From NCBI GenBank assembly GCA_029717555.1, contig JAMDHS010000090.1, positions 18,087 through 82,086 of the forward strand: a stretch of DNA of 64,000 bases, read 5' to 3'. The translations under genes and the position numbers were made by a program. The stretch comes from Peribolospora baueri. Lineage: Eukaryota > Basidiomycota > Peribolosporomycetes > Peribolosporales > Peribolosporaceae. Positions 37,826-47,679 of this stretch are shown here, piece after piece. The notes under the pieces were generated by a model. That model saw only the letters and a list, made by a program, of their open reading frames with translations, had not been told where the DNA came from and did not search any database. The first letter of the stretch is position 1. Every line of letters starts with the position of its first letter.

Positions 37826-38474
37826 ATGGTCAAGCTCGAAGAGGTCACCGACGAGCACTTCGAGAAGAAGGCCGAGGGCTTGGCCTCGGACGACGAGTCG
37901 GACGCGCTCTCCATGGCGTCGTCGGACCTGTCGGACTCGGACGAGGAGGAGGAGGACGACGACGAGATGGCGCTCGCGCTACCTCGCGAGTCGCTCCTCG
38001 ACAGGGTGTACGCGCTGAAGGACATGGTCTCGCCGCAGACGCGGAAGAACCTGGTGGCGACGGCGCAGAACACGGCGTCGTTCGTGAGGGTGGGAGGACG
38101 GTTGGTCGGAAACGTGGTCTGGGTGGTGACCACGTCGGCGCTCCTCCTCGGTCTTCCTCTCGCACTGGCCATCGACGACGAGGGGCGGATTGTGGCGCAG
38201 GAGAAGGAGTTGCAGATGCAGCAGCAAGGCGCTCAGCAGGTGAGTGAGATGTTCCGGTGTTGGTCTGCTCTCCAACGTCGCATCGCAGTATGGGGGATGG
38301 TTAGCGCGTTGGTTGTCGTCGTCCGTCTACGCTCGTTCGCTCGAGTGACCATTTCCCCTTTTTTCTTTCGGCCCTCTCGCCCAGATGCTGTCTCCCGGGG
38401 CGATCTACGGCCAGCCGCAACAGCAGCAGCAGCAGCAGGGCGGCCAGAAGACGCTCACGCCATCAGGGTTCTAA
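37826..38474 (+). CDS. TOM22: mitochondrial import receptor subunit TOM22
   Basis: Central receptor of the TOM complex in the mitochondrial outer membrane. The protein is 167 residues from ATG 37826 with one intron (38240-38384). It has an acidic cytosolic N-terminus (DSDEEEEDDDE, residues 37-47), then the ESLLDRVYALKDMVSPQTRK helix and a single TM at about 96-116 (VVWVVTTSALLLGLPLALAI), closely matching the LLWVLSTSALLLGVPLAL block of known Tom22. The short intermembrane-space tail ends in seven Gln (CAA/CAG run near 38418-38438) and TPSGF. It is divergent from the aminoacylase gene. The polyQ-containing tail is encoded by the second exon and is lineage-variable. Confidence 0.94.
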
Positions 38475-42017: not shown

Positions 42018-42692
42018 ATGGTCGACCTTCCCAACCCCGCTTGCGTCGGCCGCACCCAGCCGCCCATCCACTGGTACGCCCGCGAGGTCAAGCTCCTCAA
42101 CGCCGGCACCACCGTCACCACCACCGCCAAAACCCACGTCTCAAAAACCCACGTCTCAAACCCTGCCGCGACGTCCACCGCCGTCGCCTCCAAAGGACCC
42201 CTCACCCGCGTAGAGGACTACCTCTGGCGCAAGTGGAGGCTCTTCGAGGTCACCTTTGCGCTCTACATGGTCGAGCCCTGGGAGAAGGTCGTCATCCGTG
42301 CGTATCTTCTTTCTTTTCCTGCCTTCACCGACGCCCCCGCGTACTTGCTCGCCCCCCGCTCTGTGCACACAGATATACTCACTCGCCACGCCATTCTTCC
42401 AGTCACCTTTGCCGCCTCCGTCACGCTCCTCCTCCTCTTCTCCACCTACTACTACCTCCCCTCCCACATCAAGCTCGTCCTCCGCCGCGCCGTCTACTAC
42501 CTTTTCGACGTCGACGCCGACTCGCCTTCCTCCTTCCTTTCCAAGTCTTCCTCCTCCTCCTCCCCAGCCACCCCACCGACAGCCGAAGGCTTCGCCGCCT
42601 CCCTCCTCGCCCTCCTCGGTGCCCCCGCCCGCGCCCTCTTCCCTTCTTCTTCTTCCACCTTCGCCGCGACGGCGACGGCTGCGACGACGTGA
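42018..42692 (+). CDS. small subunit of serine palmitoyltransferase (ssSPT/TSC3-like)
   Basis: Small activating subunit of the ER enzyme that starts sphingolipid synthesis from serine and palmitoyl-CoA. The diagnostic block is residues 69-93, LWRKWRLFEVTFALYMVEPWEKVVI, matching the YMLEPWE signature of animal and fungal ssSPT. One intron (42298-42402, 105 nt) is removed, splicing C|TC. The TM helix (LTFAASVTLLLLFSTYYYLPSHI) then follows directly, as in the family. The spliced protein is 189 residues, against roughly 70-80 for animal ssSPTs. The extra length is an N-terminal arm of about 65 residues with a KTHVSKTHVS repeat and a Ser/Ala-rich C-terminal tail of about 60. The intron is a multiple of three and has no stop, so an unspliced 224-residue form is also open. 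Confidence 0.87.
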   Translation: MVDLPNPACVGRTQPPIHWYAREVKLLNAGTTVTTTAKTHVSKTHVSNPAATSTAVASKGPLTRVEDYLWRKWRLFEVTFALYMVEPWEKVVIRAYLLSFPAFTDAPAYLLAPRSVHTDILTRHAILPVTFAASVTLLLLFSTYYYLPSHIKLVLRRAVYYLFDVDADSPSSFLSKSSSSSSPATPPTAEGFAASLLALLGAPARALFPSSSSTFAATATAATT

Positions 42693-44046: not shown

Positions 44047-44145
44047 CCGTCTGTCTGTTTGTCTGTTTGTCTGTTTGTCTCGGCGTTGTTAAATTCCTTC
44101 TTTTTTACTTTTATTTTTTATTTTTATTTTTATTTTTATTTTTTT
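44047..44145 (+). repeat. GTCTGTTT repeat followed by T-rich (TTTTTA)n array
   Basis: 44047-44080 holds GTCTGTTT units. 44101-44145 is almost pure T broken by single A at regular 5-7-nt steps, a sharp AT island in GC-rich DNA. It is 310 bp downstream of the Mim1-gene stop. Confidence 0.8.
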
Positions 44146-44454: not shown

Positions 44455-47154
44455 CTACTCCCGCCGCTCCCCGTCCTCCCTCCTCCCCGCCGCCCTCATC
44501 CCAAGCGCCCCGCCGCGCAAGCTGGCCGTCGACGTCGACGTCCTCTCTCCCCTCGTCCCGCCGGCGCCGCCACGGCCGAGGCCGACCCAAGGCGCGAGGA
44601 CGACACGGGCAAAGATCTCTCCGAAACCGAGCATGACGCCGTTGACAAACGGAAGCAACAGGTTGATCGTCACGCTCGACATCGCCAGGCCCATGCGCCG
44701 GGACAAGGAGAGGCCTGGGCTGAAAATGGAGAGGGTAAGGCTCGAGCTCGGATCCACGCGCGAGTCCTCCTCCTCGTCCTCGGAGCGACCGGTGTGAGAA
44801 GTGCTCCGAGGCACGACGCGGGGCGCTCCAGCCGACGCAGATCGCACCGTCTCAGGTTGCGAGGGCTCCAGCTTGTCTTTGAGTTTCGACACGACGTCGT
44901 GGCCGGCGGCAGCGCTCGACTTGGTAGCGTCGCCACCGCCGGACGACGACAACGACCGTTCAGCACGAGCCCAGGCGAAAGGGTCGTCGATCTCCCTCTG
45001 GTCCGCCGCGCCGTCCGGACCGTCGCGGTCTCGCTTGGAAGAAGAAGACGACTCCGACTCGTTGATCGCTGCTTCGGGCGCGCCCTCCTCGAGCTTGGGT
45101 CGTTTGGCGTCCTCCTCGCTCCTCTGAACGGCGCCCTCGAGCTCCTTCCGGATACGGTCATCCTCTCCGCTCGTCGCCTTCGGCGGCTCTTGCGCCTCGG
45201 CCTTGGCCGCGGTACCGCCTTGAGCGGAAGTGTTGCCCTCAGCCTCCTCGGCCTTGCCCTCGGCTTCTTGAGCCCGACGTTGCCTAAGCTCCTCTTCCTC
45301 GGCGGCGCGCAGCTGATCCTCTTCAAACTTCATCTTGTACAGAGGACTCTTGGGGTCCTCGAGCAGAGACGCTTCGCTGGACATGCGCGAGAGGGTCGAC
45401 TCGCGCACGATCTGACGTGCCGCAATTGCCCGAGGGCTCATCCCGTCCGTCACAGTCACGCTCGACCGACGCACTTCGCCCACGGGGCCGTCGAAAGACA
45501 TGACCGCCTCGCGGTCGTCGTTCACCTCGTCCTCCAGCTCGAGCTCGAGCGCGCTCGAAGCGCCGTTCACAGCGGCGCTCGCATCGTTCGCGTTCGTAGC
45601 CGCCGGAGAGACAGTACCGGACGTGAACGACTCCTGTACGAGCTCGGGGCCGGGCAGGCCGGGAGAGGAAGAAAGCGGACGGCTGCCACCCACGCGGGGA
45701 GAGGCGCGAGCGGAAGCGACGATGGCAGAGTCGAAGGACAGCCGACGTTGGGGCCAAGGAGCTGTGTCTGCCTTACCGCGGCCGTCCTCGTCCGCCGAGT
45801 CGGCCGGCTCGGGGTCGGCGCTCAGCGACGCATCTACCTCGTCAAGCGTCGGCGGGGCCACCGTGGCCGTCTGCGCTGAAGCCGAAGGCTGTTCGGCCGA
45901 CGGAGCAGCATTGTCGTCGTGGTTTGGCAGGGGCTCGATATTCTGTCCGTTGGCGGTCGTGTCCGACGTCTTGATCACTTCTCCGGCCGTTTTAGGCTCG
46001 TCGCTCCCGAGCACTTCCGTCTCCTGCCTCTGCATCTCGGTCTGCGACGTGGCTGGGACTGGCGCGACCTCTTCCGCCATGCTAGGTGCCGCCACTGCGG
46101 GTTCGGTAGGAGGAGCGGTTTGGAGCGAGGGCTCAGGACGGCCGTCCTCCAGCGACTTGGGCACGTCCGGCGTCTCGCTCCTCAGGGGCGTGTTGGCGCC
46201 GCTCTCGTCGGTCTCTTCTTCCTCCCCCTCTCCGTTGATACCAGAAGCAGCGCCGGCCGCCTTCTTGGCCTTCTTCTTCTTCTTCTTTGCCTTCTCTGCG
46301 CTACCGCCGCTGCCGGCCGGACTGGGCGCCCGCCTTCCGATTCCTTCCTCCGGGTCGAGCGGGTCGAGACCCTCAGAGATGCGTTGGTCGTTCACCTTCT
46401 TCCTCAGCTCGGCCAAGCTGGAGGCGGAGTGATGGAGGGCGTGAGTGGCCCCGGACTTTTTCTTCGTCATGCCGCGCTTTTCCTTATCCTCGCCGGATTC
46501 GGGGAAGAGGGCGAGCGGGGTAGGGGGCGTGGAAGGACGGGACGGAACGTTGAGCGACGGCGAAGACGAGCCGACGAGGACGGGGAGCTTGCTTCCTTTG
46601 CGGTGCTTGACGCTCTTGTGCGGTCGCCCGGAACTGGTGGCACTCGGACTCGGACTGGGCGTAAGGCGCAGAGAGTCGAAGCTCGAGCTCGGTTTGAGTC
46701 TGAGCGGTCCGAGGGGAGTGTCGGGGTGTGCGCTCGGGTTACTGCTCGTCCGTTGGCGGGGAGAGAGCGAGGCGCGGCTGATTGTGCGATCGCGGCGAGA
46801 GGGGGAGTGGGGGGAGACGAAAGAAGTTGTGGAGGTGAACGAGAGAGACGAGCGCGGACGGAGAGGCTGTTCTGGAGACGACCGTTCTGCCTTGCTGTAT
46901 GGCGAGTCTGGGGAGAGAGAAGGTGTGGTGCGCGAGGGCGAGGGCGATGGAGTCCTGAGGGTGGAGTGCGAGCGGGTGGGAAGGGGAATGGAAGATGACT
47001 TGTGAGCGGTGGCTCTTACTGGGCTGGCCGAAGGGGAGCGAGAAGGAGAGGGAAGGGGGATGAGAGAAGGGGATGGCGACGACCGCGGTTGGATGGGAGG
47101 AGGAGGAGGAGGAGTAGAGACAGCGGGCGTAGACGAAGAGAGGCGGGTGGACAT
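44455..47154 (-). CDS. MIM1: Mim1/TOM13-domain protein with a very long disordered N-terminus
   Basis: Mim1 inserts alpha-helical proteins into the mitochondrial outer membrane. This intronless frame of 899 codons (ATG 47154) ends in the Mim1 signature: residues about 826-856 read SSVTINLLLPFVNGVMLGFG and then EIFARVVLAPW. Yeast Mim1 has the near-identical SINLLLPFLNGMMLGFGELF, so the TM domain is clear. The C-terminal tail of about 45 residues is basic (RRE at the end). Everything before residue about 820 is low-complexity: Ser/Pro-rich (1-230), a KKKKKKAKKAA patch with acidic stretches (about 285-320), a Glu/Ala-rich charged helix (EEDQLRAAEEEELRQRR, about 615-660), then Ser/Asp-rich sequence. 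Yeast Mim1 is 113 residues. The long frame is uninterrupted, but use of an internal start cannot be excluded. Confidence 0.85.
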   Translation of the reverse strand: MSTRLSSSTPAVSTPPPPPPIQPRSSPSPSLIPLPSPSRSPSASPVRATAHKSSSIPLPTRSHSTLRTPSPSPSRTTPSLSPDSPYSKAERSSPEQPLRPRSSLSFTSTTSFVSPHSPSRRDRTISRASLSPRQRTSSNPSAHPDTPLGPLRLKPSSSFDSLRLTPSPSPSATSSGRPHKSVKHRKGSKLPVLVGSSSPSLNVPSRPSTPPTPLALFPESGEDKEKRGMTKKKSGATHALHHSASSLAELRKKVNDQRISEGLDPLDPEEGIGRRAPSPAGSGGSAEKAKKKKKKAKKAAGAASGINGEGEEEETDESGANTPLRSETPDVPKSLEDGRPEPSLQTAPPTEPAVAAPSMAEEVAPVPATSQTEMQRQETEVLGSDEPKTAGEVIKTSDTTANGQNIEPLPNHDDNAAPSAEQPSASAQTATVAPPTLDEVDASLSADPEPADSADEDGRGKADTAPWPQRRLSFDSAIVASARASPRVGGSRPLSSSPGLPGPELVQESFTSGTVSPAATNANDASAAVNGASSALELELEDEVNDDREAVMSFDGPVGEVRRSSVTVTDGMSPRAIAARQIVRESTLSRMSSEASLLEDPKSPLYKMKFEEDQLRAAEEEELRQRRAQEAEGKAEEAEGNTSAQGGTAAKAEAQEPPKATSGEDDRIRKELEGAVQRSEEDAKRPKLEEGAPEAAINESESSSSSKRDRDGPDGAADQREIDDPFAWARAERSLSSSGGGDATKSSAAAGHDVVSKLKDKLEPSQPETVRSASAGAPRVVPRSTSHTGRSEDEEEDSRVDPSSSLTLSIFSPGLSLSRRMGLAMSSVTINLLLPFVNGVMLGFGEIFARVVLAPWVGLGRGGAGGTRGERTSTSTASLRGGALGMRAAGRREDGERRE

Positions 47155-47679
47155 GGAATAATGGAACGGCGGGCGTATCCGGCTGGGCGAGGAGGAAGGA
47201 AGAGGAAGGAGGAGAAGAAGAAAGACAACGACGACGAGGTTGACGGTCTGTCTCGCTGCTCACCTCCAAGCTGCTGCTGAAGCTGGTGAAGCTGCTGGTA
47301 GTGGTGGTAGTGGTCACGCACCAAAGTCGACGTCGTTGGTGAGTCGAAAGCGGGCGAAGCAAAGGCGTCTGCTGGACTACCACCTTGTCGTGCGAGGGAA
47401 GGAAGAAAGGTCGAAGCCGGACGATGACGACCTTTTTCATTTCTTGTCCAGCGACGGAGGCAAACGCGATCGCGGGCCTTCACGGAACACGACAGGCGCG
47501 ACGACGGCGACCGACGCTCGACACAGACACCGACCCGACACAGGCACAGACACAGACACTGACACAGACACAGACACACAACGGTGAGGGGAATCATTAT
47601 CATTCCAATTCTCATCTCCTATCCACCCATCTCTACAGACAGCTCCTCCAGGCATCCGCCCACCCGGTGGCCCCTTCCT
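47155..47679. other. intergenic region between Mim1 gene and ARP2
   Basis: 525 bp: promoter and leader of the Mim1 gene (minus-strand pyrimidine-rich next to its ATG), then the ARP2 3' side with a CACAGA repeat array (about 47520-47579). No gene supported. Confidence 0.5.
47520..47579 (+). repeat. (CACAGA)n-type degenerate tandem array
   Basis: About ten imperfect 6-bp units (CACAGA with CACTGA, CACCGA and CAGGCA variants), about 100 bp downstream of the ARP2 stop. Confidence 0.8.

Follow-up and report, generated by a model that had tools for sequence, protein, structure and literature searches.

We suggest that the single Mim1 gene detected in the genome of Peribolospora baueri probably encodes a Mim1 protein with a long, disordered cytosolic arm, which acts together with Mim2 as in yeast. 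The gene lies on the minus strand of a 64,000-nucleotide stretch of contig JAMDHS010000090.1, referred to here as the window. A long-armed protein is favoured over a short Mim1 because the coding signal is already strong more than 560 codons ahead of the domain and continues into it, and because the ORF lacks a strict intron pattern.

The TOM13 domain and the sequence ahead of it

An initial sequence-only reading had placed an uninterrupted 899-codon frame at this locus, with a Mim1/TOM13 domain at its C-terminus. Both the frame, at the same coordinates, and the domain were confirmed:

44455..47154, minus strand: the whole Mim1 ORF, 899 codons, with its ATG at 47154 and a TAG stop ending at 44455
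44605..44772, minus strand: TOM13 (PF08219) match, residues 795-850 (Pfam, E 6e-11)
44584..44685, minus strand: helix predicted at residues 824-857, presumed to be the one membrane span (hydropathy and AlphaFold2 model)

The frame stays open for 35 codons further 5' of the first ATG, giving 934 residues from stop to stop. The ORF scores 42.6 bits against the PF08219 profile, for which the curated cut-off is 25, and TOM13 is the single Pfam family found in the 899-residue frame at E values up to 1. Since no second TOM13 match was found in the genome (22,138,560 bases, 22.1 Mb; one candidate, which was scored), this ORF is the sole Mim1 candidate found. As looked for in a Mim1, the conserved core carries one hydrophobic span with a GxxxG motif. 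The best hydropathy window covers residues 836-854 (1.58, the next best elsewhere being 0.51), the sequence GVMLG occupies residues 839-843 inside the predicted helix, and the tail that follows the helix is Gly/Arg-rich. A PDB search with the C-terminal 91 residues returned one match, to an unrelated hydrolase at E 0.97.

Ahead of the domain the protein is built of Ser/Pro, Lys, Glu and Ala blocks, and residues 1-790 contain no Cys, two Trp, two Tyr and nine Phe. The sequence is Ser/Pro-rich and basic from residue 1 to about 215, and acidic and Ala/Ser/Pro-rich over residues 301-600. The features of this region are as follows:

44785..47154, minus strand: N-terminal arm, residues 1-790, with no Pfam match and no paralogue found
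46510..47154, minus strand: Ser/Pro-rich block, about residues 1-215, in CT-rich DNA with a weak coding signal
46255..46296, minus strand: lysine-rich stretch, residues 287-300, seen from composition
45235..45435, minus strand: charged helices 574-599 and 604-640, from the AlphaFold2 model of a single sequence
44761..44784, minus strand: acidic CK2-like cluster SEDEEEDS, residues 791-798, just N-terminal of the domain

This low-complexity upstream part had been described as looking disordered, and composition, hydropathy and the AlphaFold2 model (single sequence) all agree. The model has a mean pLDDT of 40.5, with 747 of the 899 residues below 50, although, with one sequence as input, such low values taken alone give weak support for disorder. 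Its most confident part is residues 601-630 (10-residue pLDDT blocks of 83, 90 and 89). Charge-hydropathy analysis also agrees with disorder, except over residues 501-600, which fall slightly on the ordered side. Residues 1-779, scanned alone, matched no Pfam family, and a search of the genome (18 candidates scored) found no paralogue of the arm but itself.

Several short motifs are enriched in the arm relative to shuffled sequence. It holds 32 SP/TP sites where 20.7 were expected (P 0.003, 2000 shuffles), 23 RxxS/T sites (13.3 expected, P 0.003) and 19 PxxP sites (10.6 expected, P 0.002), but these shuffles ignore blockwise composition, and when residues 1-215 are taken alone, SP/TP is the one motif that still stands out (P 0.01). 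CK2-type SxxE/D sites show no excess in the arm (20, against 25.5 in shuffles), and the Atg8-type motif [WFY]xx[LIV] occurs once in residues 1-790, against 1.6 expected, which is not above chance.

Coding signal and strand

The long frame had also been read as coding on the Mim1 strand, and periodicity, codon score and a strand test all bear this out, weakly so for codons 1-228. Period-3 information, scored against 500 dinucleotide shuffles, gave z values of 30.4 for codons 229-551, 15.3 for codons 552-790 and 9.7 for codons 791-899; the value for the 300 nt upstream of the ORF was 0.2. None of 500 shuffles of codons 1-790 was free of in-frame stops, the mean being 11.5. Chance read-through is rejected for codons 229-899 on the basis of periodicity against dinucleotide shuffles, and less strongly for codons 1-228.

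A synonymous codon score trained on 20 TCP1 exon stretches (2194 codons) was positive in all 12 segments of the ORF (about 75 codons each), with a mean of 0.103. For reference, the training exons score 0.06-0.29, and random chunks of the window have a median of -0.14 and a 95th percentile of 0.064. One segment, codons 76-150, lies below that percentile (0.022), and two others lie no higher than it (0.064 and 0.065). When each region was scored against its own composition, sense frame 0 reached 0.085 for codons 229-551 and 0.087 for codons 552-790, with the other two sense frames negative; both arm values are lower than that of the TCP1 exons (0.146) by the same measure.

Antisense frame 0 came close to the sense frame, or tied with it, by this own-composition measure: 0.056 versus 0.085 for codons 229-551, 0.092 versus 0.087 for codons 552-790, and 0.059 versus 0.064 for codons 791-899. 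A separate sense/antisense test was therefore needed, since the synonymous score hardly separates the sense frame from the aligned antisense frame. This strand test, which was right for all 20 left-out TCP1 exons and for 8 of 8 other stretches of known strand, put sense ahead by 110 nats over codons 1-790, including 60.8 nats for codons 229-551 and 31.5 nats for codons 552-790. The plus strand opposite the Mim1 ORF holds long ORFs, among them ones of 515, 359 and 310 aa. None of these three reached a Pfam cut-off, the best hit being DUF6463 (E 0.085), with 13.2 bits where the cut-off is 26. The strand test speaks against an antisense gene in the frame of the 515- and 359-aa ORFs, and the frame of the 310-aa ORF has a synonymous score of -0.020 over codons 229-551; antisense genes in both frames were set aside.

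Introns inside the ORF were considered and rejected, with a scan that is insensitive on known introns. The strict donor-branch-acceptor pattern occurs nowhere in the ORF, and detects just 6 of the 18 TCP1 gaps. A relaxed pattern, which recovers 11 of those 18 gaps, has 9 matches in the ORF; in the TCP1 exons, joined to 6582 nt, it has 42. GTRNGY donors number only four in the ORF.

The start of the protein and rival readings

Four in-frame AUGs other than the first are relevant to the length of the product:

46468..46470, minus strand: Met229, alternative start, 671 aa, with G at -3
45331..45333, minus strand: Met608, internal in-frame AUG, 292 aa, with A at -3
44692..44694, minus strand: Met821, internal AUG, which would give a 79-residue Mim1 that retains the scored TOM13 core
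44682, minus strand: Met825, internal AUG, which would give a 75-residue Mim1 that retains the scored TOM13 core

The first 228 codons are CT-rich and weakly supported, so the start could be Met1 or Met229, giving 899 or 671 residues. We consider Met1 the likelier start and Met229 a real alternative; the predicted arm is long in both cases. Were Met229 the true start, the CT-rich stretch would be a 5' leader that is open by chance, and the arm would have about 560 residues rather than 790. This is a sub-case of the long-arm explanation, with which its odds overlap, and we think it rather improbable. In its favour, periodicity climbs from a z of 4.0 over codons 1-228 (4.1 for codons 1-100, 2.4 for codons 101-228) to its high value after Met229, and the first ATG has a weak context, with T at -3 where Met229 has G. 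The CT-rich tract begins before the first ATG and extends well into the ORF (0.70-0.85 at 47021-47260), and 16.6% of 500 shuffles of codons 1-228 have no in-frame stop; both points make residues 1-228 less secure than the 671 that follow. The own-composition score of codons 1-228 is about zero (0.003), yet the top of six frames, and over codons 1-100 another sense frame is slightly ahead (-0.056 versus -0.062). However, codons 1-228 are still periodic (p up to 0.008), as the 300 nt upstream are not, and the strand test gives them 18 nats for sense.

Two further readings concern the link between arm and domain. The first, already offered as an alternative in the initial reading, is that a short Mim1 is made from an internal in-frame start, either Met608 (292 aa) or Met821/Met825 (79/75 aa). 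Leaky scanning, an internal promoter or an alternative transcript start could bring this about, and the long frame would then be a second product or a longer isoform. The Met821 and Met825 products score 43.0 and 42.7 bits for TOM13, matched over residues 825-850, about as much as the whole protein does, so residues 795-820 are dispensable for the match. Met608 has A at -3 where the first ATG has T, and pyrimidine-rich tracts lie right at Met821/825 (0.68 at 44681-44740) and upstream of Met608 (0.68-0.72 at 45641-45760). Against this, gene-like codons continue through the arm up to the domain, and on its way to Met608 or Met821 a ribosome that started at the cap would meet 7 or 8 AUGs in frame, the first ATG counted, and 3 or 4 out of frame. 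On balance we regard a short Mim1 as unlikely. Far less likely still is that two neighbouring genes have been artificially joined, an assembly error, a lost stop or a frameshift running the gene of a disordered protein into Mim1. Arm and domain do differ in composition, and for the arm neither a Pfam match nor a paralogue in the genome was found, but a single frame runs without a stop over 899 codons, codon scores are similar across the border (0.127 for codons 676-750, 0.118 for 751-825 and 0.146 for 826-899), and beyond codon 583 the ORF has no GTRNGY donor, the strict intron pattern being absent throughout.

Partner proteins, possible role and known systems

The genome also encodes the expected partner, Mim2, at C112:260972-261076 (PF19117, E 4.4e-18). 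Its two-exon model has 186 residues, and the PF19117 match begins at residue 104 (104-138 of the first-exon frame), so about 100 acidic, low-complexity residues precede the domain in Mim2 as well; alone in the strand test, this extension gave a weak 3.9 nats. The Mim2 exons lie at L013:1192-1609 and 1833 onward (contig C112), with a modelled 223-nt intron directly after the matched part of the domain.

In the neighbourhood of Mim1, an actin-family gene lies upstream on the same strand, and ten copies of the hexamer repeat GACACA occupy window positions 47520-47578, between that gene and the Mim1 start. Downstream and convergent, on the plus strand at 42018-42692, is an SPT small-subunit gene (PF11779, E 8.4e-14), in which visual inspection suggests a likely intron following the domain. 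A T/A-rich simple repeat at 44101-44144, A-rich on the minus strand, has AATAAA words about 310 nt past the Mim1 stop and is possibly a 3' end signal. Tom22, likewise an import protein of the outer membrane, is encoded on the plus strand of the window about 6 kb from Mim1 (37826-38239; PF04281, E 2.6e-42).

These genes bear on whether a long Mim1 arm is ordinary among fungi of this lineage; disordered extensions may be common in their proteins, which would make the arm a lineage trait and not an oddity. This is compatible with the long-arm explanation, bears on its novelty, and in our view stands evenly balanced. The extension of Mim2 speaks for it, as do the 66 residues that precede the domain in the SPT small-subunit ORF. 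On the other side, the Tom22 domain begins at its own start codon, with no N-terminal extension like that of Mim1, and no Mim1-sized arm was seen in the exon frames with matches to Tom20 (168 and 177 residues), Tom7 (69 residues) or four small Tims (29-105 residues), although this comparison would miss an arm encoded by another exon. A search for literature on disordered extensions in Basidiomycota found none.

By analogy with yeast, we infer an N-out/C-in topology, an insertase function and assembly with Mim2. The C-terminal helix, with its GxxxG motif, would sit in the mitochondrial outer membrane and work with Mim2; by homology to yeast Mim1 the arm would be cytosolic, extending over more than 560 residues if translation starts at Met229 and over about 790 if it starts, as is probable, at Met1. 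We suggest, with low certainty, that the arm could be a phosphorylation-regulated tether or docking arm, given its SP/TP sites, in which the charged helices of residues 574-640 would be the likeliest docking element. Such an arm might draw in clients and receptors around the MIM pore or control their access. The acidic CK2-like cluster, which adjoins the membrane, possibly takes the place of the short, CK2-regulated N-terminus of yeast Mim1, and Ser791, immediately ahead of the membrane core, may occupy the position expected of a regulated site like that in yeast. A more speculative idea, which we hold to be doubtful, is that both subunits of the MIM insertase in this fungal lineage have gained disordered cytosolic arms, of about 560-790 residues in Mim1 and about 100 in Mim2. 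These would form a phospho-regulated brush over the insertase for catching clients or receptors, and Mim1 would also serve as a receptor platform for itself.

Because of its very small size, yeast Mim1 is usually viewed as nothing more than a membrane insertase whose clients are handled by Tom70 and other receptors. Part of this picture appears in passages of PMC10434574. A natural long-armed Mim1, if true, would open two questions to direct study: does the MIM complex bind clients on its own, and does its N-terminal side serve as a surface for regulation other than by CK2? If common to all relatives, the long arm would be a lineage trait easily overlooked from yeast-based knowledge. No description of a long or a basidiomycete Mim1 was found in open-access literature, a subset that includes passages of PMC6010339, PMC7609059, PMC12934571, PMC7912454, PMC10434574, PMC5955198 and PMC5674900. 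Protein databases may well list long TOM13 proteins, and the newness of a long Mim1 is judged from open-access text searches alone. Bacterial, archaeal and viral genome collections yielded no relatives, as expected of such collections. The MIM complex is described as fungi-specific (PMC6010339), and the TOM13 and Mim2 genes accordingly mark the organism as a fungus. A 58-residue stretch of its PAL gene matched 23 PDB sequences, with a PAL of Joinvillea ascendens as the best, and thereby gave no lineage for the organism.

According to passages of the published work, yeast Mim1 and Mim2 are small proteins of 13 kDa (PMC6010339, PMC5674900) and 11 kDa (PMC6010339), whose N-termini face the cytosol, the C-terminus of Mim1, a protein of the mitochondrial outer membrane, lying in the intermembrane space (PMC6010339). 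Yeast Mim1 forms a cation-selective channel (PMC5674900), and its phosphorylation by CK2 at Ser12 and Ser16 affects the assembly of Tom70 and Tom20 (PMC7912454). Fission yeast Atg43 spans the outer membrane once and binds the MIM complex (PMC7609059). Like the Mim1 predicted here, Atg43 has a cytosolic N-terminal region and a C-terminal span, with a physical tie to Mim1/Mim2. As a difference, TOM13 is the one Pfam match here, and unlike an Atg43-like mitophagy receptor the arm has a single Atg8-motif-like site, not above shuffles. Within the genome, Mim2 (PF19117) is like Mim1 in its acidic, low-complexity N-terminal extension, but belongs to a different family and has an extension of about 100 residues. 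Yeast Mim1 itself is a further close parallel: the P. baueri protein shares with it the TOM13 match, a single predicted GxxxG span, an acidic CK2-like serine cluster on the N-terminal side and a Mim2 in the same genome, and differs from the 13-kDa yeast protein in a frame of 899 codons, or 671 from Met229.
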